From the NCBI GenBank assembly GCA_963971425.1, contig OZ020514.1, forward strand, positions 40,275,158-40,339,157: 64,000 bases of DNA, in the 5' to 3' direction. The first letter of the stretch is position 1, and each line of letters begins with the position of its first letter. Source of the DNA: Bryoerythrophyllum caledonicum. Its lineage: Eukaryota > Streptophyta > Bryopsida > Pottiales > Pottiaceae. Positions 16,386 through 64,000 of the stretch are shown here, piece by piece. A program made the position numbers and the translations under genes. The notes under the pieces were generated by a model, which saw only the letters and a list, made by a program, of their open reading frames with translations, was not told the DNA's origin and did not search any database.

Positions 16386-16392
16386 CAATAGG

Positions 16393-19153: not shown

Positions 19154-19160
19154 ACCAAAG

Positions 19161-23348: not shown

Positions 23349-23357
23349 CTCTTACTC

Positions 23358-42454: not shown

Positions 42455-42462
42455 CTTTGCCC
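42455..42462. repeat. left 8-bp target site duplication of the large hAT
   Basis: CTTTGCCC, directly before CAGGGTTGT. Its partner at 56000-56007 is CTTTGCAC. Confidence 0.7.
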
Positions 42463-42471
42463 CAGGGTTGT

Positions 42472-42545
42472 TCGGCCGTCCGTCCGTCCGGTAGTGTCCG
42501 TCCGTCCGACTGTCCGTTCGGTTGAGGCTACTGTCCGTCCGATAA
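42472..42545. repeat. left subterminal GTCCGTCCG repeats
   Basis: Several GTCCGTCC units just inside the left terminus. The right end has a similar group at about 55938-55985, and both contain GCTACTGTCCGTCCG. They are candidate transposase-binding sites. Confidence 0.65.
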
Positions 42546-42614
42546 GGGTCAACCGTGGTTTAACCATGACTCGAGGTAAATCAATTTACCCACTGCCACG
42601 AAGGCGACTACGTG

Positions 42615-43078
42615 GCTGACACGTCGTCAACAGGGTCGCAAGCGTGCAGACAAGGGGGCGGGCGCGTGAAGAGGGCGGGCGTGTACGGAGATGGGCCGGG
42701 TGCATACTGAAGGGGCAGTTCGCGCGCGGAGATGGATCGGGCGCGTATTGAAGGGGCCGCACGCATACAAGGGAGGACCGGAAGCGTACCATCTTGGGCC
42801 GGGCGCGTACAGCGGTGGATCAGGCGCGTACCGTGAGAGGCCGGGCGCGTGCAAGGAGGACCGCGCGCGTACCGCAAGGGGCCATGCGCACGCGGTGAAG
42901 GGCCAGGCGCATACTTGGAGGGGCTGGCGCGTCCGACCAAGGTCGCGCGCGTTCGTAGAGGGGCTGCGCGCGTTCGCGGGGGAGGGCTCGACGCGTTCGT
43001 GGAGGGGGCTAGGCCGGGCGCATGGCCTTTGGGGTCGCGCGCGTACGAGTATTGAATTCAGGGGTCGCGCGCGCTCTC
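42615..43078 (-). repeat. GC-rich ~21-bp array, left subterminal, reversed
   Basis: About 21 degenerate units of ~21 bp with the core GGCCGGGCGCGTAC, the reverse of the core in the other five arrays. Because the rightmost array (55505-55805) is in the opposite orientation, these two form subterminal inverted repeats of the hAT element. The long open frames over this array (up to 151 codons) are repeat translations, not genes. Confidence 0.8.
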
Positions 43079-43244
43079 TCACTTCTTAACATGCATGAGC
43101 TTCATGTCGCAATGTGTATGAAAAATGATAATCTTTTATCTATCACGAGATGGGCAAAAAGCACCATCACATCACAATGCTAATATATATTGCAAAATGA
43201 TCAACAATTGAAACCTTCACTATCAATACGCTAAGTCAAAATTT
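43079..43244. other. AT-rich spacer downstream of the kinase-like gene
   Basis: Lies between the left array and the kinase-like gene, whose 3' end is at 43245. No feature recognised. Confidence 0.5.
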
Positions 43245-44233
43245 CTATATCTCATAGCGGAAGCAAGCGTCCAGAACTCCAAAGTTGAATGGTTTAGCCA
43301 TTAGCTCGTCAACCACTTTGTAGAATGTTGCACGTTTGAGGGGATCTCGCTCTAGTAATTTCTCGATCTTCACTTGAAAAGCTGCATAGTTGACGGTTGA
43401 TTTGAAGAATGTTGAGTGAGATTCTTTCTCCAAAATCGCTCTAGCCATCCACCCAACGGAGTACGAATCGGCGAGCTAAGTGTATTGGTGTCGCCGCTGC
43501 ATCACATCCAATGCCGTTTCCAAATCTTGTGGGCCGAATTTGTAAAACAACTCTGGAGCTACCCAATGTCGTCTACGGCGTTGATAGTCAAGCTCCGTGT
43601 CGATCTGGAATCCATATTTTGATGGCTCTTCGTATGATATTTGGCTCGCAATTCCAAAATCACAAACGCCAATGAAGACAGACCCTGGTTTCTCTGGAGG
43701 AAAGTGGAGAAGCACGTTTGTGGGAGCGATGTCATTGTGAATGACATTTGCCTTGTGGACTTGGGCCATGGTGCACATCAAAGCCGAGGCAGGTCTCGCT
43801 CTATTCTTTTGGAAGGCTAGGATTACTCTCTCTATGAATGAAGCATAGTGATACATGCCATATGCATCCTTGAACGATTCAGAACTCTCCAGAGCGCGCT
43901 CGAATTTCGACTGGACGTCGGCCTGTAAGCACATGATTCCTGGCTCACCCTTTTCCAAATAAACTTGACGGAATCACACTACGTCAGTTTCACACCATCG
44001 ACGGTAGTATTGTATTGCCACACCTTGAAGAAATGCGGTATACTCCTTTGGTGGATAACCGGCATCCTTTTCGTGCGCAGACATTTTTGCTTCGCCCTCT
44101 TTGACGGTGCTTTCAGTGCATCGGAAGGATTGCGGCTCGACTTTGCAACGCTAGTAGGTGGAAGCTCAGATGCATCTGGAGCATCTAATTCAACATATGC
44201 GGGCCGCTTTCTAGTATTACGATCAGTGGCCAT
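43245..44233 (-). pseudogene. protein-kinase-like cargo gene, decayed
   Basis: From ATG 44233 the frame reads MATDRNTRKRPAYVELDAPD, a Lys/Arg-rich leader. After a frame change near 43.97 kb the kinase core follows: VIHNDIAPTNVLL (catalytic loop, HND in place of HRD), CDFGIA (DFG metal loop), RRHWVAPEL (the APE region) and, after an in-frame TAG at about 43.48 kb, LADSYSVGWMARAIL (helix F). The tail is LLERDPLKRATFYKVVDELM. No complete glycine loop or clear VAIK lysine was found, so the N-lobe may be missing or worn. It lies on the minus strand, head to head with the first family copy across the array at 44.46-44.88 kb. As read it has one frame change and at least one stop. Its substrate is unknown. 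Confidence 0.65.
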
Positions 44234-44454
44234 TGCAATAATCACAATCCTACACAAACTATAATTTTATAAAAAAAATCAAAACCTCTCCCGGACCCAA
44301 TGTGTGGTGGCCCCCCTCTAAGTTCCTAGCAAAGTACGAATAGTACTAGGACATGGAGCCACTTGAGAGGAGCCTATGTGATTGATATTAGAATCTGTTC
44401 CATTTATAGTGAAATGAACCCTGGCCTCGCATGCGCATCCGCATGCGCGTGACC

Positions 44455-44880
44455 AAGACGCCATGCACCCAGCCCGTTCCCGTACGAGCTCGGCCCTCCA
44501 GCGTACGCGCCTGGCTCGTAACCGAACGCGCCCAACATATTCCCGCACGCGCCCAGCCTGTTCCCGCACATGTCCAACCTCTTCCCGCACGCGCCCGGCG
44601 GTTCCCGCTTGCGCCCAGCCCGTTCCCGCACGTGCCCAACCCGTTCCCATTCGCGCCTGGCCTGTTCCCGTACGCGCCCAACCCGTTACCGCACACGCCC
44701 GGCCCCAAAGTCCACGCGCTCGACCGTGGATCCTACGCGCGAGGCCCCAAACCCTATGCCCGAGACCCCGAATCGTATGCACGAGACCCCAGCGTACGCG
44801 TCCGGTCCCCATACGGCATGCGAGCGTTCCTCATGCCACGTACGCGCCCGACCCACTAGTATAAATGGTCGTGCGCGCCC
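44455..44880 (+). repeat. GC-rich ~21-bp array between kinase-like gene and family copy A
   Basis: About 20 units of ~21 bp with the core CGCGCCCAGCCCGTTCCCGTA or CGCGCCCGGCC. It lies between two divergent genes (kinase-like, minus; copy A, plus). A TATAAATG follows at 44860. Open frames across it are repeat translations. Confidence 0.8.
44860..44867 (+). promoter_or_regulatory. TATA-like element before family copy A
   Basis: TATAAATG at the right edge of the array. A downstream GGAAATCGTGGC (44906) also occurs after the array before copy B (48103), so the two upstream regions are homologous. It lies 282 bases before the ATG, so a 5' UTR or intron must lie between. Confidence 0.4.
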
Positions 44881-45141
44881 ATCCCATCTCACAAACGCCA
44901 ATTGGAAATCGTGGCCTTTAACTATCTTTTTGAGGTGGCTGATTGCTTGATCTTTGATTGGGGCTCCAGATTTGCACATTACTACGACGTATTGCATCAC
45001 CGCATCGATCTCCGTTCGAATTACTTAACATTGCTACCTTGTATTATTTTGAAATCCAAGGTGGTAATTGTTTGTTTTTTTTTGGATAGAGCTTAGCGTA
45101 GTTAACAAATAATTTGGTAGATTTTTTTACAGTGTTCGGCT

Positions 45142-47550
45142 ATGGAGAGTGAGAGTGAGCTGGATGCCCAACAACAGCCACCAATGTCCACCACGCAGAG
45201 GAAGAGGGAGAAAGACAGAGATAGGGCGAGGCACGGGAAGCTCCAAAAGAAGCGGATGCACGTGTTCAACAATCCAGCAAAGATTGCATTCGTGGGTCGG
45301 CAAGATGAACCATCGCCATGGTCGTCTGTCACTTGCGAGGATTACATCGAGTGGAGCCACCTGTTGAAGATATTTCCTCCACATCGCCATTTTATAAATC
45401 GTCGTGCAAACAAGGCGAATTTGAAGTATTGCATCAATGAGGCGTTTCGAGCTCGTGCCCTCCAAGTTCACCAATACTTATACGAGCTCGAATTCATGCC
45501 CCGCAATGATTGTCCCTTTTATCTCTCTTGCATGGTATATGCGGAGGTCGTTCTCAATAAGCGAGTGGATTGGAGGACTGTGCGGAAAACTCCCAAAATG
45601 CCGAGGGTGTGGATGCATGCCGATGTGCCTAGGGAGCAACATCCAGTGTTTCCTTTTACGGCACTAGGGCCACAGAAAACGGATGGACCAGAAGAAGTAG
45701 CTCCAGTAGAGTCAGATTCATCACCGGATTCGGACTCAGATGTACGTGTAGGTCGACTTTCATCAACTTCTCTGTGCGTCACGGAAAAAGCGCCAACAAG
45801 TGAAGCTCCATCAAGCAGGACGTCTACTGGTTCAAGGAGGTGGCCAAGTACATTTACCAATCGTAAATCTTGTTGGCGATGATGAACCCGCCGCGAGGCT
45901 TGAGGGTGTTGGAGATGAAGAACCCATCCATGTTATGGATGAAATGCCAATGATGGATGTCGTAGTCACCACTTCCAACACTAGGCATGTAGCATCAGGG
46001 TCGAGAAGTACGACCGTTGATGCTCACCAAGAGTTATTGGACACTATAAGTTTGAAGGATGAGATGATTCAATGTCTCCAAGAAGAGATTGAAAACCTCA
46101 AGCTGTTATCCAGTGAAAAGGGTGATATTATCACCAAGCAAGCAACCGAGATAGAAGTGTTGCCAACTAGACTAATATTGGCGGAGTTGCTCGAGGTGTG
46201 GACGACACAATCCTCGACAATGTTATTGGCAACATTACTAGCTGCTTGCTAGATGCCCCGACAAGACCACCGCGTCACCGCTTTGCTAGTCGTCCGTCCG
46301 GTTTTCTACCGCCGCCGACTGTAGCAGCGCAGCCATTTGTAGATTCCATCGGCACCGAGGATTCTCTGTCGTTTTCCCCAGCCAATCCAAGCACGGAACT
46401 TGTTCAGCTTCGCACTGCAAATGACATCCTTCGAAAAAGGATTAGATCGGTGAGCGAGCAGTATTATCAATGGAAGGTGGCATGCATCTTGAATGTTGAC
46501 CGTGCGAGGCAAATGGCAATAGAGATCCAGAAGATTGACAACGAATATTTGACGAATAATATGCGTCGTGACTTTGGACTCGCATCTTGGGCTCACATCG
46601 ACAAGATGTTTCCAACTGAATTGCCTCTATTGCCAGATGGTAAATCTATTCACTTGGCAAAGTTGGAGTGGGACCACATAGAGGCTATGTCTTCTCATGC
46701 CCTTCAATCAAGTGGAAATGTGGCACCACGCAAATTATGGCCAACACCAGCAAGCTTCACGCAAAATGAAGATGCTTGCCCGGTTTGTTTAAATCCTTTC
46801 GGGCCAGAAGGTGCATATGATCTTGGCACATGTTGGTGTTTAAACCATCTGATGTGTCTCCTAGGTGGTATCTTGACACGTAGGTTTTGCGCAAAGTGTA
46901 GAACACCATTTCATAAGCACTTGTATGAATTGTTTGGCCTCACCACCTACATGCCACCTAGTTGGGAGTTGAACCCAGAGAATGCGCCTGGGGATGCCTA
47001 TGCTCAAAAGTGGGGAGAAGATTTGGTGTGGGACTGGCGTGCGCAGTGCCACGAACTACATAAGTCCAGTGTAAGCACGCAATTTGGTTGGGAAAATGAC
47101 CACGAAGAAATTGTACGAGCGGCCAAGAAGCTCATATCGGGAACCACCGCGGACCATGTTGGTAAATGAAACTTCTTCTACCAAGTCATGGGCGGATATT
47201 GGAATGCTAGGCGGAAGCAATTTCAATTCAGACGACATCCAGATGGGAAACTGTGGAATCACTAGGGACGTGTGGTGTCAGAATTGGGAGAGGCCACTGA
47301 TCTTGACCTTCGCAATGTGTTGCAATGGGAAGAATCGCAATGGAAGGAAACTTGGAAGGAGGAAGCTATTGACTTTCTTCTTGAGGAACATAGTCCGGCG
47401 ACTATGAAGACTCTCAAAGCACTTCGGAACTCCGAAATGTTACGTGCTCTGGTAAACGCGGATGGGCCTCACCGGAGGACGCGAGCGACTTGTAAATTGC
47501 TAGATGATGGGGCCTTAGGAAGTGGTGAACCAAGTGGAGCTGATGCCTGA
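45142..47550 (+). pseudogene. cargo family copy A, RING-like C-terminus
   Basis: Best kept of three paralogues. Frame 1 (45142-45882) has a basic start (KREKDRDRARH), then the family block KKRMHVF ... PSPWSS ... YIEWSHLL ... ANLKYCINEAF ... VYAEVV ... VDWRTV, then an acidic Ser/Asp stretch. Frame 2 (to 46252) is coiled coil (LLDTISLKDEMIQCLQEEIE). The third part (46198-47169) has KIDNEYL helices and a Cys/His cluster, CPVC-x14-CWCLNHLMC-x11-CAKC. Its eight ligands have the C4HC3 order, like a RING-type zinc site. A probable 120-base intron (47162-47281) joins it to the last part (to 47550). Two frame changes at about 45.84 and 46.19 kb have no convincing introns, so it is slightly broken or mis-sequenced. 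If active, a RING would suggest ubiquitin ligase function; the N-terminal block is unknown to me. Confidence 0.6.
47162..47281 (+). other. probable intron in family copy A
   Basis: It starts GTAAAT and ends GTGTCAG. Its 120 bases keep the frame, and it contains the only two stops (47167, 47263) that separate the RING-like part from the following coding sequence. Removal joins HV-E-LGEATD. Confidence 0.5.
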
Positions 47551-47757
47551 TGAAGTGGAGTATAGGCAAATAGAATGCAAGATGAAAGCGTAGCATTTGT
47601 AACTATTTTGTATGTTGCAAAATTTGCATATGCAATATAAATATAAGGACATCTTTAAAGCATTGACTCATTTCTTGCATCTCCTTTGAAACATTGAAAT
47701 TAGTTTCTAGCATTTAAGATAATCCAATTTGCAAGAACTGAACTTTCCATGGTCCTT
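47551..47757. other. 3' flank of family copy A
   Basis: AT-rich, with several AATATAAAT sequences that could serve polyadenylation. No gene seen. Confidence 0.4.
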
Positions 47758-48078
47758 GTTCGTGCGCGGCCGGCCCAACAACGCACGCGCGCGGCCTCAA
47801 AAGGCATGCGCCTGTTCCCCATTCGCGTGTGCCCAACCTCACAGCACACACGCCCAGCTTCAAAGCGCACATGCCCGACCCCGAAGCGCACGCGCCCGGC
47901 CTCAAAGCGCATGCGCCCGACCCGAAGCGCACGCGCCTGACCCCATTTGCACGCGCTAGGCTCCCTTCGCTCGAGCCCGACCACTTTGTTCGTACGCGCG
48001 AGACTATGATTGGTATGCGCGAGACTATGATTGGTATGCGCGAGATCGTCCCATCTCGTACGCGCGCGGCCTATGGGA
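47758..48078 (+). repeat. GC-rich ~21-bp array before family copy B
   Basis: About 15 units with the core CACGCGCCCGGCCTCAAAG. The right end has the GTACGCGCGAGACTATGATTG variant in a short tandem. CATAAATT follows at 48095. Confidence 0.8.
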
Positions 48079-48094
48079 GGCATGCGCGCCTCGC

Positions 48095-48172
48095 CATAAA
48101 TTTGGAAATCGTGGCACGATGGGCCCACTTTCCAGGCGCTTTGGCCTGTAACTGCCACGTGGCGGCTGCTTG
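48095..48172 (+). promoter_or_regulatory. upstream block shared by family copies B and C
   Basis: A TATA-like CATAAATT, then GGCGCTTTGGCCTG and CCACGTGGCGGCTGCTTG (which includes the G-box core CACGTG) at 48135-48172. The same block lies at 50381-50418 before copy C, also after an array and TATA. The conserved order suggests a shared promoter. Confidence 0.5.
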
Positions 48173-48251
48173 CTAAGCACTATTGGAAAGTGGGTCATGG
48201 TGTCTATTGACACACTTTTACTCCCGATGTCCCTTCACGCTAGTTTCAAGC

Positions 48252-49031
48252 ATGGACTCAAGTGGGCCTTCTGAGATTCGGGCTTCCGAGAAGAAAATGA
48301 AGAAACGACAGCATGATGCGGGACGAGTACGCAACCACGAGCAGAAGAAACGCATTCACATGTTCGTCGATGGTGAGCTGAAGGCATTTTGAGGCTAGGG
48401 AGATGTACCAAACCCGTGGACATTTACACAGTGTGCAAAGTACATTGCCTGGTGTCATTTGGGACGAATGTTGCCGCATTTGCGGTATTCGCAACTTTGC
48501 AAATACGACAAGGATAATTTAAATTACTGCACCAATGAAGTATTCAAAAAATGGTGCATCCAAGCGTACCAGCACATCTACAACACGGCAAAGGTTCACC
48601 GGAACGAGGTGAATCTATCCATTTTACGTATGGTGAATGCTGAAATTATACCCGGAGTAGTAGTCGATTGGAGGACGATGGAAATACAACCAAACTCCAA
48701 GATGACACCAGTATCCACGGCGACACTACCAATAGAGCGCAAGTTTCCGAGCAAAGCTCTAGGAAAAAAGGCCAAGGAGGTTGAAGTTCCAAACGAGGAA
48801 ATTGTGTGGTCTGACACTTCCAGTGGCGACTCGGATACTAGGTGTGACTCAACTTATTGCAAGGAGATTGAAGGCTTTATTAAATGCCATAGGCTAGATT
48901 CTGCCCTCCAAGACACACCGACAATTGGAGAAGATTCCGGCAAGGAAAATGATCCAACTGAGATGGACGCGGTTGCATATGAGAACATCAATGAAAACCT
49001 AGAGTCTTTTGATGATGTTCCAATTGGTTGA
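48252..49031 (+). pseudogene. cargo family copy B
   Basis: ATG at 48252 (MDSSGPSEIRASEKK), then HEQKKRIHMF. After two in-frame stops (48390 TGA, 48396 TAG) the same frame continues for 190 codons: NPWTFTQCAKYIAWCHL ... NLNYCTNEVF ... QAYQHIYNTA ... VNAEII ... VVDWRTME, then an acidic tail. It matches copy A over the N-terminal block and copy C more closely. It ends before any coiled-coil or RING-like part, although worn coiled-coil-like sequence follows to 49.2 kb. The second stop lies at the same place as one in copy C. The rest of the frame is open, so decay is slight. Confidence 0.6.
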
Positions 49032-49875
49032 GAGTCTCATCTTCAACTAAATATCAGCAGAGTATACAAGAATACAAGAAACTGGTAGAAGAAGCCAACC
49101 GCAACTAAGAAATACTTAAAAAATTACGCGTTGTACTCCAAGAAAAGGACAATCAAATCCAAGAATACTCAAAGTTGGTGTTTACTTTAAAGTCGTAGAA
49201 TTTGATAGCAATGGAAGTAGTGCCATGAATGATAAACGGGCAATTTTGTAACATTTTGAAATCATAGACCTTGTGAATTTTATAAATTGCACTTCATTTG
49301 TAAATGGCTTTAGTTCGAAACAATATTGTTTATCTACGACGTTAATCAAGTTTGTACGGTTCAGCATGTTTTTTAATTTGTACAATGTAATAAAGTGAAT
49401 GTTCTATACAGTCTTGTATACATTTAAATTATATATTTGATGAATGTGTTATGATCTTCCATGATTGTACAACTTCATGCACCCTTGTCAATAAATTAAA
49501 TTCACTTTTGTCTAATATTTGATAACCGACTACAATAGTCTATAGTATCATCGAGAATTTTTTTGTAGTGAAATTTATATCATGTGTTGAAGAATAAAAC
49601 TTAAATTTTTGTCTCAAACATGTAAATCATAAGACTAAACAATAAAAATCATGTTACTATTAAATGATTTGGGATGTAACAAAATCCCCAATATTAATGC
49701 AACATTATTATTCTTGGTTGAATTATATGTAATTAATTGCAACGGCCTTCCAAATGAAAAGATATGGCATTCTACCATACAAATTATCCATATTATATCT
49801 TAATATGAGTATAAGTTTGCTGAACAAATCATTGAGCATGCTAATTGAAGGTACTAACTCTCCTCAAAAAATCAT
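49032..49875. other. AT-rich, no recognisable gene
   Basis: The first 150 bases hold the worn downstream part of copy B (KKLVEEANRN-like). The remainder is AT-rich with no feature. Confidence 0.4.
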
Positions 49876-50216
49876 TAAGTAAGTATAAGTATTGTGTGCC
49901 TAAGTAAGTATATGAATTGTGTGCCTAAGTAAGTATAAGTATTGTGTGCCTAAGTAAGTATAAGTATTGTGTGCTTAAGTAAGTATAAGTATTGTATAAG
50001 TAAGTATAAATATTAAGTATTGTATGTATAAGTATAAGTATTGTATAAGTAAGTATAAGTTCAAGGTCCTTGGTTATAAGTAAGTATAAGTATTATATGT
50101 CAAGTTCAAGGCACAAGGTTATCAGTAAGTATAAGTATCGTATGTCAAGTTCAAGGCACAAGGTTATAAGTAAGTATAAGTATTGTATGTCAAGTTCAAG
50201 GCACAACTTCAAGGCA
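49876..50216. repeat. AT-rich tandem repeats (AAGTATAAGTATTGT type)
   Basis: Two nested arrays. The first has about six 24-25-bp units of the type AAGTATAAGTATTGTGTGCC-taagt. The second has about three ~46-bp units that add GTCAAGTTCAAGGCACAAGG. The array leads directly into the GC-rich array at 50217, a sharp change in composition. Confidence 0.8.
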
Positions 50217-50330
50217 CACCCCTCTTGCTTACGCGCGCAGCCCTCCAGCGTACACGCGCAGCCCTAAAGCGTACGCGCCCAACCCTCTCGCGTACGTGCG
50301 CCTCTTGGTCGTATGCGCCCGCCGTAGGTC
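50217..50330 (+). repeat. GC-rich ~21-bp array before family copy C
   Basis: A short array of about five units with the core GCGTACGCGCCCAACCCT. It is followed by CTATAAATATT (50340). Confidence 0.75.
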
Positions 50331-50339
50331 ACTAATTTA

Positions 50340-50418
50340 CTATAAATATTAGATTTCAAAGTTACGGGCCCCACTTCCTAGGCGCTTTGGCCTGCAACTC
50401 CCACGTGGCGGCTGCTTG
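50340..50418 (+). promoter_or_regulatory. TATA-like element and shared block before family copy C
   Basis: CTATAAATATT at 50340, then GGCGCTTTGGCCTG and CCACGTGGCGGCTGCTTG at 50381-50418, near-identical to the block before copy B. Confidence 0.5.
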
Positions 50419-50537
50419 TTTGGCACTTTCGGGAAGTTTTTTACGGTGTCTATTGACACCTTTGTATTTCGCCAGCTTTGTAGTCCTCCACCTCGTCACC
50501 ATAGATTCTGGACAACCATCTACCACTAGCAGTCCCC

Positions 50538-51514
50538 ATGGAAAACAACAACGTGATTTTCGTCACGCAATCTCAAAGCAGAAGAAGCGCCTTCACGTAT
50601 TGATGGTGAAAAGATGAAGGCATTTTCTGGTTGAGAGGCAATTCCAACTCCATGGACATTTGCACAATGTGCAAAATACATTGGATGGTGTCATTTGGGG
50701 CACCTTTGGCCATACTCGCGGTATTCTCTAATGCGACGTACAAATAGGGTCAATTTGAGATACTGCACCAAAGAGTTCTTTAAGGAGCGTTGCATCCAAG
50801 CTTACCAGCACATTTGTGACGAGGCGAAAGTGCGCCGCAACTCGATAAATATTTCAATTTTTACGGATGGTTTATGCGGAGGTGGTACTTGGCGTACTAG
50901 TTGATTGGAGGACAATGGAAATTCACACACACTCTAAGATGGCGCCAGTCATTGGATTAACAATACCGTTTGTGCGGAAGTTTCCAGGAGAAGGTCTCGG
51001 GAAAACCATGGAAGTTGAACCTTCGAATCAAAAAATCGAGTGGTCCACGTCTTCATCTGACGACTAGGATACATGATGTCATTAGTCTGTGCGTAGGCAA
51101 CAAGAATTGTCCATCATATCAGGCTTGAACCCTAAACCATCGGTTTCACAACAAGACGGAGATGCCACGAAGACGGATGCGGTACTAGAGGAGGGCGTGG
51201 ATAATAAAAAAAAGTCTACGGAGGGTGACTGGGTGAGTCGTGACGATTATCTTCCAGTTGTGAAGCGACTAAATGAAAGCTTGAACGTAATTGAGGATCT
51301 AGGAGAAGATCTCGATGAGAAGGATAATGAAGTTGCGAAATGTCTTGAAGAATTTGAAGACTTGAAGCCACAAGTTCGGGAGAAAGACAATCTTCTTTCA
51401 TTTTTTACTGGCTTTAGGGGAGTTAAGAACTACAACTGTGCTAGAAATGTACATAGAGCAATGTTGAAACGTTTTGGAACAAGAGCTTTCTACAATTTTG
51501 TAACTGCCATTTAA
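50538..51514 (+). pseudogene. cargo family copy C
   Basis: Worn paralogue of B. Pieces in two frames read SKQKKRLHV, then TPWTFAQCAKYIGWCHLGHL ... NLRYCTKEFF ... QAYQHICDEA, then MVYAEVVLGVLVDWRTMEIH. The last part (51089-51514) has a coiled coil (VVKRLNESLNVIEDLGEDLD). There is a stop just before TPWTF at the same place as in copy B, stops near 51.07 kb, and frame changes near 50.6 and 50.87 kb. No RING-like part remains. Many stops could have come from C-to-T changes. Confidence 0.6.
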
Positions 51515-51649
51515 AATTGAACGATATTTTGCATATTTAATAAAACCTTGTAAATTGAGTGGCATCATGTATATTTAGTGGATTTTTATCAGATATTTTA
51601 CATATCAAAATATTAAGTGTTGCAATATTTCAATATATTGTCGAATTAG
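51515..51649. other. short AT-rich spacer
   Basis: Lies between copy C and the next array. No feature. Confidence 0.5.
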
Positions 51650-51835
51650 TGCGCACGCCCCAACATTGTGCCGCCTGGCCCTAGAGCGTACACGCCAGGC
51701 CGACAGCGTGCGCTTTTGGCTGGAAGCGTGCGCGCTTAGCCCACAGCGTGCGCGCCCGGCCCCACAACGTGCGCGCCCGGCCACATAGAGTATGCGCCCG
51801 GCCCCCCTTGTTCGCGCCCGGCCCCAGATGCTCAA
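51650..51835 (+). repeat. GC-rich ~21-bp array before the hAT transposase gene
   Basis: About nine units with the core CGTGCGCGCCCGGCCCCACAA. A TTTATATAAG follows at 51844, and the transposase start codon is 198 bases further on. Confidence 0.8.
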
Positions 51836-51843
51836 GCTCCTAC

Positions 51844-51853
51844 TTTATATAAG
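51844..51853 (+). promoter_or_regulatory. TATA-like element before the hAT transposase gene
   Basis: TTTATATAAG, directly after the array. It fits the array-TATA-gene order seen before copies A, B and C. Confidence 0.5.
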
Positions 51854-52041
51854 AACCATATGCGATGTGCTTGACTCACCTCACATCCTTGGCTTCGTGT
51901 CCTGGAACTCCTTATTGGGCTCCTTGCATGAATCATAAGTTTGTGAGTGACCTTTGGGTCCACATTTTCTATGCTCACACAATTTCCTATTACTTTTGGC
52001 GGATTCTCTATGGCACAACATTGCGCGCCAATTTTATTGTG

Positions 52042-55000
52042 ATGTCGTCTCAACAAAGGGCTCAAACGAAGGAGTGGGCCCCATGGTACACATTTAACAA
52101 GAAGGATCAAGTGACATGTGTTTGGTGCAATTACACGTTCGCATACAAACGTGGGAGGTGCATGTCACACTATGGGTATCCACAATGGACAAAGACTTCG
52201 TGCACTAAGGCCCCAACGGCTGTTAAGGCCCGTTTTAAAAGATGCGGGAATATTATTCCTACTAGGATGACCGAGGCGGAGATCATTGGCCTTCCTAGCG
52301 CACCAGCAACATGTTCCACTGAACCTTGTTCTAGCCAATCCATCCAACAAGGTAGTTTCTTGGAAACTCAAAATGAGGAGAACACGCAGTCCACAAATCC
52401 TCTAAGCCAAGTAGCATCATCAACACCAAGATCTGTACAACAACAGAGCTTTCCAGAGGCTTACCAAAAAGAAAAACGAAAAGAGTTGGACGAATTATGG
52501 GCACATTTTTTTTATGAAGCAAACGTTGCATTCAACATGGTTAGACATCTGGCCTTCATCAAGGCCACCCTCGCAACTTCAAAGGCGGGTTTTGATTATA
52601 CACCGCCATTGTATAGTGCCATGAGGACGACATACATTGAGCCTCTAAAAAAAAAGTGAAAGACCTTGTGGACAAGAAGATGGGCGTAGATATTGCCAAG
52701 TATGGAGCAACAATATGCTCGGACGGGTGAGACAATGTTACACGTCGCCCTCTCATGAATATCATGCTCGTATGTCCAATGGGTGATATCTTCTCGGGGT
52801 CTATAGACACCACGGATATGAAGAAATCTACGGCATATATAGGGGACCAATTGAAAAGTTTAATCCGTAAGGTTGGACCATTGAATGTCGTCCAAGTGTG
52901 CATTGATAATGCTTCAAACATGTTGGGGGCAATGAAGAAGGTCAACGATGAGTACCTCCACATATATACTCAAGGGTATTGTGCACATATTTTGGACCTC
53001 CTCCTCGAGGACTGGGGGAAGGAAGACATATTTGCAGACCTCGTCCAGAAGGCAAAACAAATTGCATTGTATATCCGGAACCACCATGAGCCCATGGCCC
53101 TTTTTCGTCGATTTTCGTCAAAATTGTCTCTGTTGTGGCGAGCAGCAACAAGGTTTGCATGCAAATACATAATGATCCATCGTCTGTTGGAAGTAAAGAA
53201 TGCCCTGGAGATGGTTGTGATAGACCCAGCATGGATATCCTACGTATCCTCTCTTTCCGATAGGCGAAACGGGCACCGTGCCCATGCGAAGGCATCGCAG
53301 GTGCGAGCCATTGTTCTACACGAGACTTTATGGCATCGGTGCACTAACTTTGAATTTGTAGTGGCACCAGTACTAAACACATTGCAGACTTTTGATGGTG
53401 ACACTCCGGCATTGGGAATTTCTTGGGTGACCATGAACAAGCTAAAGGAGCACGTGTTCAAGCTGCGCAATGCGCCGTTCAACATGCCTGACGGAATTGC
53501 AACTCGCCTCGAAGGATCATTCGTTGCCCGTTGGAAGATGATGACAACAAATCTCCATTATGCAGGGGCTTTATTGAATCCTTATCTAGCCAATAATTTG
53601 CAAATTCAAAACAATGGTGAGGCCAAAAGGGCACTAAACAAGGTTGTTATCATGCTCTGCGGTGCACTCGGAGTGTCTATTTTGGCAGTAATGCTCGAAA
53701 TCACAAAGTATGAAGAATTGTGAGGCCCACATTCACCATTGGAAGCTAGGGAAATTAAAAACAACAACCTATTGCCTCACCAATGGTGGAACGGCGTGGG
53801 CGGGCAACCATTGCCTATCATTGCGAAGCGTATACTAGCACAAACCTGCTCGGCCTCGTCATGTGAGTGTAATTGGAGCATGTATTTGTTCGTGCATAGT
53901 AAGAGCCAAAATCACTTGGGAGTGCAGAAAGCGGAAGATTTGGTTTTCATCTACACGAATAGACGATTGCTCCAAGAACGTGCTCAACCAGATCCGATTT
54001 GATGATATGAGGAGAATGTGCATTCAGAGGAGTCTGATCCAGATGGGGGACTTCCTTCAAACACATAGGACGAGGGCTTGGAGTCGGATGATGAGGGTTA
54101 CAACTAGATGGGTGTTGATTGAGAAGACCTTGTCGGTGACAACAACCCCGTGTCTGATCATAGCCCACATAGGGACAACTCTGCAAACAACGAGCACGGT
54201 GGAGATGCACTTCATGACCATTTTCACAACGTCCACGGTGACCCAGTGGATTCTTTTGTGTTTGATGATGTCGACGCAGCGGCAGTCCATACTGTAGTAG
54301 AATTATCGGGTGAAGACCGTGCCCAAGAAGCTATGGCAGAGGAAGATGGGTCGGCATTGGGGGCAATCTTGATGGAGATGACAACATCTCGGAGAATCAG
54401 TCTCCCAACTCAAACGGCTCTGGCGCCTCAAGCCCTTCTAGTGGCGATGGCCCTGATCTCGACGGTCATGGCATTGGCATTGCAGCACACAATACATTTC
54501 CTCACGATGGAAACGAAGTGAGTTGTGGTGAAAACAATAATGAATCCCATGAGCCAATGGCCACCACGAGGTCCATTGAAGTTGTGAGAAGCACTCTGGT
54601 TTTGCCTCAAGCAATAGAACTGGACTCAGAGGAAGACATGCCACTCCAAGATTTGTTTCGGCGGCCACGTGCTCAAAGTACCGCATCGATCGGAAGAACT
54701 CTTTTACGTGTAAAGAAAAAGACCTCTTCAACAATAGTTTGGCCACCCGTCCACCGTAGCGCACTCGGCCCAAATGGTGGTGTGGAGCGCGCGATACGAA
54801 TCCCACAACTTCCCTCCGCGAGGGTTGGGTCCTCTACTATGAGCAACCATTTAGGGACACGGAGGGGCGAGAACAATGGTACTCTCCCTTTCTTCACGGG
54901 ACCTTGGCAAAGCGGAACCTCGGAGAGAGTCATTGGGGCCAAAGGCAACCGCTCTATAAACATGGATGGAGTAACAAACAAAAGGAAGAATATCCGAGTA

Positions 55001-55267
55001 AAAAGACTTGTGAACGCCGCATCAACTACTGGAGCTGAGCTACAATTACGAAACTTGGCCTCAGAGATTGAGGAGTACGTGGCACCAGTCTTGGAAAATT
55101 CAGCGGAAAACTTCTCATCATCGGGCGATGATGCAGACGATGAGGATTGCGATGAGGTACTTGGCAACAATACGGTGGTGCTTCGCGGGCTTTCTCTTCC
55201 CCAAAATGTTCGCCAATCAAAACGGAAGCGGAAACACAATGAAGAATCCTCAAGCTCAGATGATTAA
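52042..55267 (+). pseudogene. hAT transposase (BED finger, DUF659, hAT dimerisation), lightly broken
   Basis: Start chosen at ATG 52042 (MSSQQRAQTKEWAPW); an upstream in-frame ATG at 51865 is less like the family. Order: BED-type finger (CVWCNYTFAYKRGRCMSHYG), Ser/Gln-rich linker, DUF659 start (ELDELWAHFFYEANVAFNMV ... TTYIEPLKKK), RNase H-like core (VQVCIDNASNMLGAMKK, GYCAHILDLLLEDWGK), hAT C-terminal dimerisation part (LPHQWWNGVGG ... CNWSMYLFVHSKS ... DLVFIYTNRRLL), and a long acidic tail with a basic cluster (KRKRKHNEESSSSDD). Breaks: a frame change in an A run at about 52650, TGA for Trp at 52727 (CSDG*DN), TGA at 53721, stops at 54000-54003, 54069, 54105 and 54117, and a frame change at about 54.5 kb. 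It probably mobilised this element. Confidence 0.8.
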
Positions 55268-55504
55268 AAGATGACGGACACGAGGGAACTACAAGTTAAA
55301 AGTGTCTTTAGTGGTGTGGTGATAGCATGGTACAATAGTACCGCGGTTTTAAAATATGTACTTGGTGTTGAGAGTGCCCATTCATGAAAGCACCACATTG
55401 AAATAAATAATTTTAATGTTAGAGCACCCTGGTACAATTGTATTCTTTCAAATTCTCTAAACCTCAACCCTTTTGAGAGGCAAATGCAGTGTTTGATCGC
55501 ACAC
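55268..55504. other. 3' flank of the hAT transposase gene
   Basis: AT-rich spacer before the right subterminal array. No feature. Confidence 0.5.
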
Positions 55505-55805
55505 GTCCAACCCCTAACCGCGGGCGCCCGATAGGCAGGTGCGCGCGCGACCCACAATGGTACGCGCCAGGCCCTTGACGCCGCACGCCCGGCCCCTACC
55601 GGTACGGGTCCGACCTTGACGGTACGCGCCCGGCCTTGATGCGTAATCGCTCGGCCCTGATATGCACGCGCCCGGCCCTGTATGTACGCGCCCGGCCCTA
55701 ATTGGAACGCACCTGACCCTACTTGAATGCGCCCGGTCCAGATTGGTACGCGCCTGACCCCAAATGCTGCGCACCCGATCTGGAGGCACGCGCCCGCCCC
55801 TTGAT
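55505..55805 (+). repeat. GC-rich ~21-bp array, right subterminal
   Basis: About 14 units with the core GTACGCGCCCGGCCTTGATG. It faces opposite to the array at 42615-43078, so the pair acts as subterminal inverted repeats. No gene follows within the element, unlike the four inner arrays. Confidence 0.8.
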
Positions 55806-55937
55806 GTGACGTGGAAAGTTGTCTAACATGTCGTGCACACGTGTTTTATTAGGGGGTAAGTTGAAAATTTGATTTAGGGTTTGTAATTTTTTTTTACACG
55901 CAACTGTCAGCCAAAAAGTGTTGTCCATCTTGTCCAT

Positions 55938-55999
55938 CCGTGCTACTGTCCGTCCGTCCGCTGTCTTTTGGCCCCTGTCCGTCAATATAGACAACCCTG
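55938..55999. repeat. right subterminal GTCCGTCCG repeats and terminus
   Basis: GTCCGTCC units, then GACAACCCTG ending at 55999. This pairs with the left end at 42463. Confidence 0.65.
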
Positions 56000-56007
56000 C
56001 TTTGCAC
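56000..56007. repeat. right 8-bp target site duplication of the large hAT
   Basis: CTTTGCAC, one mismatch to the left copy CTTTGCCC. Confidence 0.7.
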
Positions 56008-56043: not shown

Positions 56044-56450
56044 GTATGCGACCACCCATCCACACACCATCCGTAGAATCCATTCCCAATCCCCTTCCGC
56101 GCTCCATCCGCGCTTTTTTTGTATTACATCCGCTCTCCATTTGCATTCCATCCGCTTCCCATCCATGCCCTATCTCCGCACCATCTGCACCATCCGCTCA
56201 TTTTATTTGCAACCCTCTTTTGCGCCCCATTTTTCCCCATCTGCGCCCCATCCGTAGTCCCGGTCCGCACTTCATCCGTAGTCTCCATTCGTAGCTCCAT
56301 TCACGTCTCATCCGCTCTCCATCTATAGTCCCTATCCACAGTACCCTTCGGACCCCGTCCGCCTCATATTCGCCCCAGCATTCGCCGCCCGTCGGCTGCA
56401 ACATCCTCTAGTTCACGCCCCATTGACGGCCCATCCGCGCCCAACTACCT
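56044..56450. repeat. degenerate CATCCGC array before the second hAT relic
   Basis: About 25 pieces of 12-20 bp that end or start in CATCCGC or CATCCGTAG, pyrimidine-rich and imperfect. Like the arrays inside the large hAT, it lies shortly upstream of a hAT transposase-like sequence, but the unit is unrelated. Confidence 0.7.
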
Positions 56451-56596
56451 ACATGCTCCGTATGAATTTTAGTATAAATTAGTGCCGTCCTAAGGCAACA
56501 TTGCGTATCCTAGCATAGTTTATTTCAAGACCTTGGATTCTTTATATAAAAATGCATTGTATTAGATCCCATTGCTGAGAAAGGTTTGAGGAATTC
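56451..56596. other. spacer with TATA-like sequence
   Basis: Contains tttatataaaaa at about 56540, before the second hAT relic. Confidence 0.35.
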
Positions 56597-58905
56597 TTGG
56601 TGGCACTTACATTCTTGCTACGCCATGCCGTTTCGGAATTCTACATCGAATCTTTGGTAAAAAGACATGGGTTATGCTCCTATATCTGCATGACAATTAA
56701 ATGTTGGTTTTGTTCTCAAACCATGTCCTATAGAGCAAACATGATGTTGTTGCACATGGAGTACCGTCCTCGTAACGGTGCAGGGCGTGATGTTAAAAGT
56801 GTGTAGGATGGTGCCTCCACATATGCGTGTGTTGTTTCAAGAACGTGATAGCGGTGTCCCGGATTGTCATGATGTTTCCAATAATTTACCCCTCCCCTTT
56901 AGGCGGCAAGGATGAATTTTGGGTGGAACCTTTATTACCACAATCCATGAACAAGTTCAAAATTTGCAAACCACTCGTGAGGTGGAACCTACACTAGTAG
57001 ATCCAAAACCTTGACAGCTATGCCACCTCTTCTTGATCAAAGGCTTCAAGTCTTTTGCAAAACAACTCTTGGATAGGCTTTGGTCTAGTGCTTTTCACCA
57101 AACAAACATACCATTTAATATCATTAGGTCTTCTGCATGTATAAAAGACGATTGTGTAATTGCGCATGTATAAATGTCAGCATAGAACCCGCAGTCTTAT
57201 AATGTCGTACGTACGAAGATGTTGACTAAAAAAAGTTAATCTAGGAAGGGAGATCAATGAGAACATGGAGGACTCAACATCATAGTATGGAGTTATGGTA
57301 TTTAGTGATGGTTGGCTCAACATTCAAAATCAACATTTGCTAAAAGTTAACTAATCAGGCAGAAATGGAGATGTTTTCCTTGGCACCATTGATACATTGG
57401 GAAGATATAAGGACCATTTCTACGATGCTTCTCAAATCCAATCGTTTCTACAAGGAGTCGGGCTTGTAAATGTTGTCCAAATATGCACAGACAATGTTGT
57501 GTCATGTAGCCTACATACTCTGACATCATGCAAGCAATTTTTTATCTCCATGTTCAAGGATGCGCTACTCATTGCTTGGATCTTACATTCGAAGATTGGG
57601 CGAAAGAAAATTGGGTGAGAAGGTTAGTGAGGAAGGCTAGGGCTATTTGTTTATTCATAAAAAACCACCATACTCTACCTGCAATCTTCCAAAGGCTATC
57701 ACTAGGTCTTGCTATTTGCCTGCCTAAGGAGACACCATTTACAACAAATTTTATTATGATAGAACATTGCATCCAAGTTTGTTAGGCCGTAGAGAGAATG
57801 GTGGTTGATGAAGCATGGCATATTTTCATTGCAAAGTTGTAGACCCAAGCCCTAGCTACACATGCGAAAGGCATGTTTGCATGGTCGGTGATACGCTCTA
57901 CTGGATTTTGGAACAACTGTGTGAATTTTGTGTACATGGTGTTGTTGGTGGTACGTATCTTTTGTGTGTTTGACGAAAATGCTCCTACAATGGGCATTAC
58001 ATGGAAGGTTATATTGGATTTGGAAACACATGATCAAGGATTCACCAAGGTCGTGTTTCAATTGAGACAAGTATTGGCAACTATGGCATTAGATGCCTTC
58101 AAATGAGGTTGTGACTTATGCTTACTGACCTTCATTAGGCAAAAGCTATGTTAAATCCTTCTTTGCAAGGATGGGCCCCTGTGCATGAGAATAAGCATAC
58201 GAGACAAATTTTGAATTGAGTCCTTTGAAAGCTAGTTACAAGTTTAGAAGATCTTGGGAGGGTCTTCAACTAGTACCAAGATTTCATTGAAAATAGAGGG
58301 ACATTTGCAGATATGATGGATTCAAATGTGCTCAATGTATTGTTCCATGAATGGTGGGATGCAATCAAAAGGTAGGGCAAAGGGATTGCAATTAATCGTG
58401 AGACGCATACTTGCTCAAGTATATTCTGCTTTAGCATGCAAATTGGAGCATATACTCCTGTGTTCACAACAAGTTCTACAATCACCTAGGACATAGTTGG
58501 GCGGAGGACCTCGTGTTCATTTCCACCAATTCTACGCTCCTAATACATCAAAGGGGAACAAGGGTAGGTAAGTGGCTTAAGTTAAACGGTGTGCATCTTG
58601 ATGATGAAAGCAACAAGGAAGATCCAGACAACCCAAATGAGGAAGGACGTTATCCTATAAACACCATAATTGTTGTAATGAGAGAATTCAATGATTTTGG
58701 GAAAATACAACTTAAGTCAAGTCAAGTGGAATTGAACCAAGAGATTGAGTACTTCACTGAAAATGGACAAAACAACCAATCATTGAAATATTCAAATGGC
58801 CATAATTTACTTAAATTTTGTCCACATTGGGCATATGAGAAGTTTTTTGACATCTACAAAAGAAGTCGATGTCAAAAACACCTCTTATGTCCAATTTGTC
58901 TCTAA
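56597..58905 (+). pseudogene. second hAT transposase relic, older and from another family
   Basis: Pieces in three plus frames: a BED-like finger (IKCWFCSQTMSYRANMMLLH, about 56.69-56.75 kb); VGLVNVVQICTDN (57.46 kb); CATHCLDLTFEDWAKENW (57.55 kb); FIKNHHTLPAIFQRL (57.65 kb), which aligns with IRNHHEPMALFRRF of the first hAT; MVVDEAWHIFI (57.8 kb); ENAPTMGITWKV (57.98 kb), like DTPALGISWVTM; LFHEWWDAIKR (58.34 kb); and a C-terminal STNSTLLIHQRGTRVGKW (58.5 kb). The last open stretch (58513-58905) is an acidic tail. Many stops and frame changes. It is not a copy of the first transposase at nucleotide level. No terminal repeats were found. Confidence 0.65.
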
Positions 58906-60379
58906 TTATTATTTTAACAATCCTTTTCAAGGGCTACCAATGAAGCATTGGTGCAATAACTGCACGAGGGATTGGTGCTTCATTAGTAGCTGTGGGAGTC
59001 TAAAATTCCTATTTGGTTGCTCCTACCAACAAAATTAGCTAAATTGTGATTTTTAGTTTAGATAATCGGCAAAGTAGTTAGTATTGCATAGAATTAGATT
59101 ATATAGCAAATAGTGAAAATAGGAAAATGCTTAATTAGTTTATTAGTGTTATGGTGGTAAAATTGGATCTTAAAACAATCAAACTTTATGCTCGAAAAAA
59201 CTAAAAGAGAGTGACTGGGAAAGTCATTGGGACAAGGGTTCAAATCACCACTTTGGGCAAAATTAGCTAGTCAAGTTTTCATTGAGTAGATAGACTATTT
59301 ATTAGTTTTCTTTCTAAATTAATTGATTAGGTTTCCTTTTTAATTTAAGTGTTGTTGAAAATTTAAATTCTTATTCAAAAGAATAGGAATTTAAATTTAT
59401 ATGAAAGAAAAAGATAAAAAGAAATAGGGAGAAAAGAAAAAGAAAGATTTAAAAATAGATAAATATCAGTTGATACCCTACCAAGTTCAAGATATAAGCC
59501 TGATACAGGTATCACCTTGGTAACGAGGAGGGTATCGCTCGGATACCAAGGGGGCCCCGGGAGTTTGCAGCCACATAGAAGAAGTCGAGGGTTTTAAGCT
59601 GCAAAGTAGGGTTTGTGAGAGATTGCAACGGAGGGGATTTTCAACGCGACAAGGTGGCGATCTCTAGGCATGGAAGTGGTGCAAAGAGGTTCACAACCGC
59701 GATGAGAAGACTCAAAGACTAAACCACGATTGCAAGAAGGTTATGGATGGAACCGGGAAGAGGCAAGAAACTGTGAACAAGGTGCTTCTTGTCAATTGTT
59801 AAGTGTTTCATGTTTGTGAAATTTCCTTGTTTGTAAGTTCTCTTCATTCACTTGTTTTTCTCATCTTCTTTTCCTGGGGATAATCTCTGGTTGTCTTTTT
59901 TCCGGTCTAGGGAAAGTCTACGGATAGACTCTACTTAGACCTTGTGCATCTTGAAGTCTTGAATTTATGTTACTTGTGCATCTATCCATTTTCTGTGTAT
60001 TCATTTTCTTCCTTTTCATTGTTTCGGCCTTGTGGCAAGTAGTCTTACTACTCTCCCTATTCTTCCCTTTTTTCTTAGTCTTGCCTAAATTTTCTGTCTT
60101 TTCCCGGTCTCTTGGTCTCCTAGAAAACCCCCTTCAAAAATTCTTGTTTTCCTAGCATAGTCATCTCTTTTGCTTAAAGTGGTTAATTGTTATCTTGTTT
60201 CGTCCAGTTGTGTTTCTAGATATGTGGGATGCGTACATCTACATAAATTTTGAAAAGGGTTCTAGAGAATGTACACCATTTGTCCGATATACTTGTGTTT
60301 TTTGGGCCAGACCGGAAATTGTGATAAGTTGGTAGGGTGATTGGTGGAAGTACATGCACATCCCGGAGTTAGTCCATCC
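58906..60379. other. no recognisable gene; hairpin-forming block at 59.47-59.56 kb
   Basis: AT-rich to 59.46 kb. Then a short stretch repeats GGTATC and GATACC in both orientations (gataccctaccaag ... cttggtaacgaggagggtatc) and could fold. 59.58-59.9 kb looks like a leader of the relic that follows (purine-rich, no frame). Confidence 0.35.
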
Positions 60380-61297: not shown

Positions 61298-61712
61298 CAC
61301 TATAAGAAACCCGTATTTTTTGTGATGTTCCAAAAAGCACAGAAAAATGTCTAAAAAAACAGGGATGATGTCCATGAAAAAATCACCTAAAATTGGATCA
61401 ACCGAAACATGCAAAAACATGGCAAAAATTGCACTCAACATAGACAATGTTTACCTTAACATTTCTGCCAACATTTACGCGTGTCCTTGCTAACATCCCC
61501 ATGTTTGGTAGCTAACATCCCCGTGTTTGGTAGCTAACATCTCCATGTTTGGGAGCTAACATGCCCACGTTTGCCAACTAACATCTCCATGTTTTTTACA
61601 ACGTCCTGTTAATTCTGATGTTTTTCTAGATGTCACTTTTCAAAATGTTAATGTCGAGCGGAACGTCTACGATTTTAGGTGACATCACAAAAAACACGGG
61701 TTTCTTATAGTG
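61298..61712. mobile_element. CACTA MITE, 415 bp
   Basis: Starts CACTATAAGAAACCCG and ends CGGGTTTCTTATAGTG. Flanked by ACA on both sides (61295-61297 and 61713-61715), a 3-bp duplication. The terminal ~30 bp resemble those of the 2.78-kb CACTA element at 34.8 kb, so both may use the same transposase. No coding capacity. Confidence 0.88.
61487..61598. repeat. 22-bp tandem repeat inside the MITE
   Basis: Five units of about 22 bp, GCTAACATCCCCATGTTTGG and variants, without interruption. Confidence 0.85.
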
Positions 61713-62376: not shown

Positions 62377-64000
62377 TGATAAACGCTAGGGTGAGAGTAG
62401 TGATGTCAATGAGGTCCCATTGTGTACCCGGTTACTACCACTTGAGTGACTGGGCAATCCTTGATTCTTGGATCAAAATGTCATTTTCAACCTTTTGTGG
62501 ATCTGGTTTCTAGAGAGTTACTAGTGGCCTTTGTGTATTTAAGGAGCCTTGGGCTTTTTTTTTATGTACTTTTCTCTTTGTTGATTTGCTTGTGTCTTGC
62601 CTTCATTGCTTGTGTCTAGAGTTATTGTTGAGCTTCTGTGAGTAGAGAACGAGGGAGTTGAGTCCTTCTAGTGGATCTTTGCTAGGATGTGCAAGGTTGT
62701 GGCTTGTTGAATGTTATGTGATTGAATGTAAGCTAAGGCTTTCGGAGGGAGTAGGATATCCAAGCTTGATGCTGGAGTAAGATTCGGGATCTACTCCAAA
62801 CTCTAGACCAGTTGGATCGAGAAGATTGATTTCCAGATGGGATCCAGAAAGCCTACTGCTATTTATGATAGCATCCTTTAAGTGGGAAGTGTTTGGATTG
62901 GTGGAGAGGAGAGGTGACATCCCCCTCCTTGGTACACCGAGAGAGATCCCAGCTAAGCCTTAGACTGGAGTATTCCCAATTTTCTACCATTACAGTGGAT
63001 GAGATCCCTTGATCCCCATGGAAAGTTGTCTTGCTTATGTGAATCACTTAGCACTAGATTGTTGTGATTCTTGTTTCATCCTTGTTTGATTCATTGACTG
63101 TGGTTGTAGTTGGAATCGGGCTTTGCGTGACTGGTTTACTGGGACTGATTTCCAGATTGTTTTCAAGAATGTTTTTCGGTAAATTGTGAGGGCCGATGAA
63201 CTAGCTACAACCTCTTAACTTTTTTATGGAGTAGAGTTAGGTTGTGAAGATTGTGGACTCTGGACTACAAGAACGAAGGGCAGTGTTTTTCCAAACACTG
63301 TAAAAACTTACCGGAAAACTACTCTGACGATGAACAGAGTTTTAATTAAACAGTTGTGGTTACTTGTAACCGGTCACTAAGGTACCGGAAAAGCCATCCT
63401 TCCGGGTGTGTTGAGGTATTGAGTATGTATTGTTCTTAGATTTAGAAAGTTTGACACACGATAAACATCCTTGGACACAATCTGGTTAGGTGGGCTCACG
63501 TAAGGTTAATTTCGGTTAACTTTGGAAATTATGAACCACTGGACTACGTCGGTAGCCCTTCAAAATGATTGTCAAAACAATAATTAGGGACAAAATTCTT
63601 GTCAAGCCAACACGATAAGTAGCGTTCAACTTCCTATTTATTGAAAACAACCTTTCACTTGTCAAACTAAACAAGGCTATGTCGTACGAAAAGGTGGAAG
63701 GAGGTCTAGAATAGGATTTAGACAAAAGGCAACCTCTTTTTATGCAAACCTCAATGCGGTTGCGGACGTACCTATAGCACTTCCACATTGCAAAGTAGCT
63801 TCTACTAGCACTCTAAGTGATAGTAGACGCTAGAAGACTACACGAGGGATAAAGAGACGTCAAAGGAATCAAGGAATAGAAATGTCATTTATTGTTGAAG
63901 ATTAGGACCAATCAGACCAAAGACCCAATTTGGATGCTGATGGAATACGTATTGTCAAGGGCTCCCATTCAACAAGGAGGTTGATCATTACTTGAGATGA
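62377..64000. other. no recognisable gene
   Basis: A T-rich stretch at 62.55 kb and short frames on both strands with no nameable motif. A weak 90-codon minus-strand frame at 63516-63788 matches nothing I know. Confidence 0.45.

Follow-up and report, generated by a model that had tools for sequence, protein, structure and literature searches.

The window analyzed here, 64,000 nucleotides of Bryoerythrophyllum caledonicum (assembly GCA_963971425.1, contig OZ020514.1, positions 40,275,158 to 40,339,157 of the forward strand), contains at positions 42463-55999 a 13.5-kb single hAT element, known here from one copy; all coordinates below are those of the window. The element carries a kinase-like gene, a three-member gene family (G2, G3 and G4), a DUF659/hAT transposase gene (G5), and six arrays of one repeated motif. 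The presence of this 21-base repeat at most promoters and at both ends suggests that the element has its own gene-control, and perhaps silencing-escape, system.

Borders of the element

The left border of the element is formed by the 9-bp terminal inverted repeat CAGGGTTGT (42463-42471, plus strand) and the right border by ACAACCCTG (55991-55999, plus strand), both short repeats of the CAGGG type found in hAT elements. The inverted termini seen in the initial annotation were confirmed; the inversion is exact, and each of the two sequences occurs only once in the window. The 8-bp target-site duplication previously assigned to the borders is present with one mismatch, its left copy CTTTGCCC (42455-42462) and right copy CTTTGCAC (56000-56007), both unstranded, agreeing at 7 of 8 positions without being identical. 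Among 17 CAGGG and 24 CCCTG sites, the pair of the element was the only one 200-30000 bp apart with 8-bp flanks differing at no more than one position. When 300 first-order Markov copies of the window were screened under comparable criteria ([CT]AGGG at the start, inverted ends of 9 bp, flanks of 8 bp with one mismatch or none, a spacing of 0.5-20 kb), two pairs were retrieved in total, as compared with one pair in the real window.

The subterminal repeats GTCCGTCCG reported earlier near both ends were also recovered: five copies, some of them overlapping, are clustered on the left (42478-42541, plus strand) and two overlapping copies on the right (55948-55960, plus strand), which accounts for seven of the eight occurrences in the window. 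All eight are located on the plus strand and none on the minus strand, so the end clusters are direct rather than inverted; shuffled windows contained a mean of 0.10 copies, with a maximum of 2, counting both strands. With these clusters, the assignment of 42463-55999 to one hAT insertion is secure. The eighth copy, the only one away from the element ends, lies at 46292-46300 within the coding part of G2.

Genes of the element

Five disrupted genes were delimited through an interpretation of the reading frames. The kinase-like gene (43245-44233, minus strand) was correctly anticipated, with a Pkinase match (E 4.4e-9) covering part of the C-lobe (profile positions 102-179 of 263); its matches in PDB correspond to generic kinases, of which 92 sequences had an E of 0.01 or lower and the top one 6.4e-5. 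At the opposite side of the element, the transposase gene G5 (52042-55267, plus strand) encodes a protein with a long acidic serine-rich tail. This gene had been described as a BED/DUF659/hAT transposase, and the last two parts of that description were supported by matches to DUF659 (E 7.4e-24) and to the hAT dimerisation domain Dimer_Tnp_hAT (E 8.7e-5; 22.7 bits vs a cut-off of 21.4), whereas for the BED finger there is a Cys/His pattern, spotted visually in the N-terminal piece, which gave no Pfam match up to E 1. DUF659 transposases are common in plants, and together with the degenerate AACCCTA repeats of the window this one makes an origin in a plant likely.

The genes between these two, G2 (45142-47550), G3 (48252-49198) and G4 (50538-51514), all on the plus strand, form the three-member family that had been noticed before, as shown by sequence comparison. 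G2 and G3 share 36% identity over 149 amino acids; for G3 and G4 the values are 58-60% in the two pieces of G4 used as queries and 43% along a more extended stretch of 131 amino acids. By eye, a basic QKKR-x-H motif is common to the three proteins ahead of their N-domain, although in G4 it sits in a different frame from that domain, and the proteins show a coiled-coil-like region. The G2 N-terminal and G3 pieces had no Pfam match up to E 1, and the other family pieces had sub-threshold matches only. G2, the largest member, has an extra C-terminal part that is Cys-rich, with a RING-like pattern recognized only by eye. The RING reading of this tail is only a guess that Pfam does not support, with two sub-cut-off matches (E 0.14 and 0.24) and one expected Cys apparently missing. 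With the pieces searched, the rest of the window yielded no homologs of the kinase-like gene or of G2-G4 at an E of 0.01 or lower. In IMG/VR, the transposase piece gave 30 pattern matches and the G2 N-terminal piece 3, none of which was confirmed as a relative.

One array motif at both ends and upstream of four genes

The initial annotation had pointed out opposite-facing GC-rich arrays at the two ends of the element, and these were found as array L (42630-43075, minus strand, 17 lattice units) and array R (55490-55815, plus strand, 15 units), each beginning ca. 170-180 bp inside the corresponding end. Beyond these, four further arrays of the same motif, absent from the initial annotation, are located inside the element, all on the plus strand: A1 (44420-44865, 19 units), with the divergent kinase gene on one side and G2 on the other, A2 (47740-48090, 16 units) upstream of G3, A3 (50205-50330, 5 units) upstream of G4, and A4 (51640-51835, 9 units) upstream of G5. 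A TATA-like stretch was seen by eye after each of A1-A4. A repeat finder reported the GC-rich arrays separately; the six constitute one system, in which a 15-bp core, GTACGCGCCCGGCCC, is followed by about six free bases on a 21-bp lattice. It has to be noted that the core corresponds to bases 1-15 of the consensus that the repeat finder gave for 55622-55699 in array R, so the other five arrays are independent of its derivation.

Searching the window for this core at up to three mismatches gave 47 matches, 46 of them in the arrays, one elsewhere in the element and none outside; at up to four mismatches there were 65 matches (63 in the arrays, one elsewhere in the element and one outside). With the stricter threshold, all matches in L were on the minus strand and all those in the other five arrays on the plus strand, with two exceptions appearing at four mismatches and 14 opposite-strand matches at five (2, 7, 0, 0, 3 and 2 in L, A1, A2, A3, A4 and R, respectively). 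Placement of units on the lattice by their match to the core, with no threshold on single units, resulted in 81 units vs a mean of 10.8 in first-order Markov shuffles of the arrays (50 rounds). Of the 75 gaps between units, 47 measured 21 bp and 18 measured 20 bp (mean 20.8), a spacing near two DNA turns. Self-identity at lag 21, a measure free of unit choice, reached 0.42-0.63 in five arrays, and in A4 it peaked at lag 20 (0.50; 0.41 at lag 21), in comparison with averages of 0.28-0.31 over lags 5-59 and with a peak of 0.31 in a coding control stretch.

The single-unit nature of the element, which the initial annotation had proposed for the interval with its kinase-like gene and gene family, is well supported by evidence internal to the sequence: the termini and the near-perfect duplication fit a hAT, and one array motif links both ends with four internal promoters. 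Nested or chimeric ends were rejected as the principal reading on account of that same motif, which the two ends and the four internal promoters have in common and which has no match elsewhere in the window beyond the element at up to three mismatches. The stretch between G3 and G4 also contains AT-rich tandem arrays with 25- and 45-bp units (49876-50206), unlike the GC-rich arrays.

Regarding base composition, the observed/expected ratio of CpG was 1.10-1.44 in the six arrays and 0.77-0.95 in the five gene bodies. The ratios were 0.55 and 0.48 in the left and right flanks, 0.49 in the AT-rich G3-G4 stretch, and 0.68 in a SAC3-like frame of the window described below. This pattern fits, without proving, arrays that escaped methylation.

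Selection on G3 and G4 and conservation of their promoter block

Purifying selection has acted on G3 and G4. Their comparison was made on 108 codons in two frame-consistent pieces, the rest being omitted and G2 being left out as too diverged, and yielded a pS of 0.678 (dS about 1.75) and a pN of 0.213. The resulting pN/pS of 0.31 (bootstrap 0.23-0.43) contrasts with values of 1.0 and 1.39 in wrong-frame controls, and the differences are distributed as 28, 19 and 54 over codon positions 1, 2 and 3. Since pN/pS is low and synonymous sites are near saturation, the two proteins were constrained long after their duplication.

Conservation extends to the non-coding DNA in front of both genes. The promoter block of G3 (48121-48220, plus strand; 100 bp) is identical at 81 of 100 positions to that of G4 (50367-50466, plus strand), even though synonymous sites in the genes are near saturation, and CCACGTGG and GTGTC-TATT-GACAC are present in both copies. 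In addition, the promoters of G2 and G3 share the exact 14-mer TTGGAAATCGTGGC. When the 28 pairs among eight regions (five promoters, two ends and the neighboring relative described below) were compared, only G3/G4 and G2/G3 stood out; no sharing of promoter blocks by the ends, the kinase promoter or the transposase promoter was found in this comparison. From their sequences, G3 and G4 look like a duplicated array-promoter-gene block. If A2 and A3 were duplicated together with these genes, the array cores would have been kept while synonymous sites were randomized. Gene conversion, instead of selection, is an alternative explanation for the likeness of the promoter blocks.

These data bear on the idea, advanced in the initial annotation, that the extra genes are cargo. 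This part of the earlier proposal probably does not hold: the long protein-level selection on G3 and G4 and their kept promoter block fit working parts of the transposon, so "cargo" is probably the wrong word, and the extra genes are probably functional components of the element instead of passive passengers.

A decayed relative with its own array

The right border of the element is adjoined by a decayed related transposase (56050-58905, plus strand), outside the element, which is accompanied by its own CpG-rich array (56050-56450). Homology to the transposase spans 56916-58542 and is collinear with G5: tblastn with the middle piece of G5 gave 33% identity over 190, 37% over 60 and 36% over 44 amino acids, the C-terminal piece gave 63% over 35, and the N-terminal piece 27% over 77 (E 6.7e-5). 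Lag peaks in the neighboring array are at 11 (0.41) and 22 (0.37), and CATCCG is present in 9 copies in its 411 bp vs 12 in 47 kb of background. The CpG ratio was 1.33 in this array and 0.46 in the decayed transposase. Since the neighbor has both its own array and a G5-like transposase, the combination of array and transposase is present in no fewer than two related elements, whose motifs differ. A right end located farther out, so as to include this neighbor, was rejected, since the duplication fits the 55999/56000 junction and the neighboring array differs in motif and period.

At the end of the remnant begins a 51-nt inverted repeat (58895-58945 and 63544-63594, 84% complementary, about 4.6 kb apart), which may bound another element.

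Proposed function of the arrays and alternative explanations

The anatomy of the element, its array motif, the selection on G3 and G4 and the conservation of their promoter block are direct observations. The explanation that we tentatively prefer, at somewhat below an even chance, is that of a dead, formerly autonomous multi-gene hAT whose arrays bound an element-encoded factor that kept promoters and ends active, in a VANC-like manner. According to this model, the G5 transposase would cut at the CAGGGTTGT ends, probably recognizing the GTCCGTCCG subterminal repeats, and the six arrays would act as dense binding platforms, mostly in one orientation, located at the two ends and in front of G2, G3, G4 and G5. 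The likeliest binder would be encoded by the element itself, with the G2/G3/G4 family as first candidate, and once bound it would hold the promoters and ends of the element active and unmethylated, as VANC does for VANDAL elements. Both the identity of this binder and its activating or anti-silencing effect are inferred. A more far-reaching version, in which some hATs independently evolved full sequence-specific anti-silencing, with the G2/G3/G4 family recognizing CpG-containing arrays of 21-bp phase at the two ends and at most promoters of the element, arrays and proteins coevolving, and neighboring hAT families differing in motif, is possible but doubtful.

Several observations weigh against the preferred explanation. 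All five gene bodies have stops in frame or frame changes, so this copy looks dead, and to judge from its sequence it could not be active as it stands; furthermore, there is one copy only, and the mobility of the whole unit relies on internal evidence. Regarding the putative binder, no DNA-binding domain was recognized in G2, G3 or G4 with Pfam. The weak model of the family N-domain is all-helical, and fold models were poor (mean pLDDT 49.9 for that domain and 38.5 for the second model); when the first model was compared with PDB by Foldseek, 9 matches were obtained with E values as high as 10 allowed and none with E ≤0.001, so nothing was deduced from fold prediction. High CpG values are possible in GC-rich DNA irrespective of methylation, and core CpGs show some changes of the deamination type, with T at position 3 in 19 of the 81 units and A at position 10 in 16 of them, which indicates that the arrays were not fully protected. 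Information content was 0.98 bits per position in the core and 0.12 in the linker, but unit choice inflates core conservation and shuffled arrays reach 0.76 bits per core position; since lattice selection itself yields units that look conserved in part, the unit count carries more weight. Finally, linkers of adjacent units within A1, A2 and A3 resemble each other more closely (0.45-0.48) than do those taken from different arrays (0.25), so slippage also shapes the arrays.

This last observation is the one to be expected if the arrays were neutral GC-rich minisatellites spread by slippage, devoid of function. Adjacent units have identities of 0.64-0.72 in the core and 0.25-0.48 in the linker; units from different arrays are still 62% identical in the core vs 25% in the linker, with the proviso that unit choice inflates the core value. 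Slippage within arrays is thus accompanied by a core kept between them, subject to that same caveat. The near-uniform orientation within each array, along with positions that track promoters and ends, also speaks against functionless repeats, which we consider very improbable. Capture of several host genes, or of an adjacent gene cluster, carried along as passengers would account for an unrelated kinase-like gene and for three genes of one family lying side by side, and plant hATs with captured gene fragments are described as Pack-hATs in excerpts of PMC8903248. However, each rightward gene has the array of the element itself, G3 and G4 have diverged almost to synonymous saturation while remaining constrained and retaining their promoter block, and there is a transposase, which Pack-hATs lack. 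Passenger genes therefore appear quite improbable.

More attention is deserved by explanations that give the arrays another binder. CAMTA proteins bind the CGCG box, VCGCGB, and the arrays might consist of sites for host transcription factors of this kind, making the element a stress-inducible multi-gene hAT without an anti-silencing factor of its own. A VCGCGB box does lie at core positions 2-7 in 36 of the 81 units, 60 of the 100 plus-strand sites of the window fall in the arrays, and the TATA-like stretches are located downstream of them; nevertheless, the box is missing from the other 45 units, in which the rest of the core is kept, conservation covers 15 bp and so more than the box, and arrays are also present at both ends, where no gene of the element starts. 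This explanation is unlikely. There is a similarly small chance that the transposase itself binds the arrays as extended subterminal repeats, the promoter copies serving for self-regulation. Subterminal repeats of hATs are often inverted near the ends, as L and R are, and the neighboring related transposase is likewise accompanied by an array. On the contrary, a subterminal repeat of another kind, GTCCGTCCG, already exists at the ends, the arrays do not start until well inside each end (ca. 170-180 bp), and cutting does not need copies in front of every rightward gene.

Comparison with known systems

Plant Ac-like/DUF659 hATs have CAGGG-type ends, an 8-bp duplication, a hAT dimerisation domain and subterminal repeats. 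The present element shares all these traits with them and differs from them in its 13.5 kb, five genes and six arrays of one motif. By comparison, Ac measures 4.6 kb (PMC3260210). Excerpts of PMC8903248 describe Pack-TYPE elements as non-autonomous and as carrying fragments that they captured. The present element resembles Pack-hATs in having hAT ends around further genes, but instead of captured host fragments without a transposase it contains a transposase gene and two family genes under long selection (G3/G4 pN/pS 0.31).

For the VANDAL Mutator-like elements of Arabidopsis, a transposon protein that counters silencing in a sequence-specific way has been described, VANC, whose binding accompanies loss of methylation (excerpts of PMC5735166 and PMC10398659). 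As in VANDAL elements, we are dealing with a multi-gene DNA transposon and with a motif that varies between families: the dense same-orientation, family-specific non-coding repeats of VANC-type systems have a counterpart here, and the neighbor differs in motif and period. VANDAL elements differ from the present one in that the latter has a hAT transposase, short inverted ends and an 8-bp duplication, and in that its arrays repeat, with a period of 21 bp, a core of 15 bp that contains CpG; anti-silencing by the present element is putative. No VANC homolog was detected, the G2 N-terminal and G3 pieces having no Pfam domain up to E 1, with no direct comparison to VANC sequences being made. A second likeness is with hAT7 of rust fungi, a hAT with an extra gene, a TET/JBP dioxygenase, possibly countering DNA methylation; it differs in its 7-bp duplications and in encoding an enzyme instead of a putative array binder, and promoter arrays are unmentioned in the excerpted text (PMC12730594). 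No hAT with such arrays was found in the literature as judged by titles and abstract openings, which is weak evidence of absence, and the main texts of PMC13317346 and PMC6431247 contain the whole word hAT 0 times.

The element shows a hAT as a gene-rich unit, not a single-gene one. In the Spm/En system of the CACTA superfamily, the element protein TnpA acts on GC-rich and subterminal repeats against methylation, which is the kind of action proposed here; superfamily, proteins and repeats are all different from those of the present element. The array-tagged promoters, the selected gene family and the neighbor with its own array would suggest that anti-silencing strategies arose more than once, and the element would offer a clean test system for transposon evasion of methylation, with one 15-bp unit, a fixed phase and a small protein family.

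Other features of the window

A Tc1/mariner-like element was identified at 16375-19171, in which a DDE_3 frame (17914-18714) is enclosed by inverted arms of 563 nt, 96% complementary to each other and containing tandem repeats of about 177 bp; such long inverted arms seem unusual for elements of this type. A CACTA-type MITE-like unit of 415 bp (61298-61712) has 31-bp inverted ends that begin with CACTATAAGAAACCCG and are 97% complementary, and weaker ends resembling it are located at 37383-37595. The long open frame at 20229-23351 (minus strand) matches SAC3/GANP (E 2.1e-26) and is likely a host gene, and a remnant of a Copia-type reverse transcriptase (RVT_2, E 1e-34) lies at 30471-30929 (minus strand). 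In addition, a block containing TACCCGTGTCC...GGACACAACA together with a CCCCGT-rich microsatellite is present twice, side by side, at 12920-13510, and degenerate telomere-like AACCCTA/TGAACCT repeats at 2978-3175.

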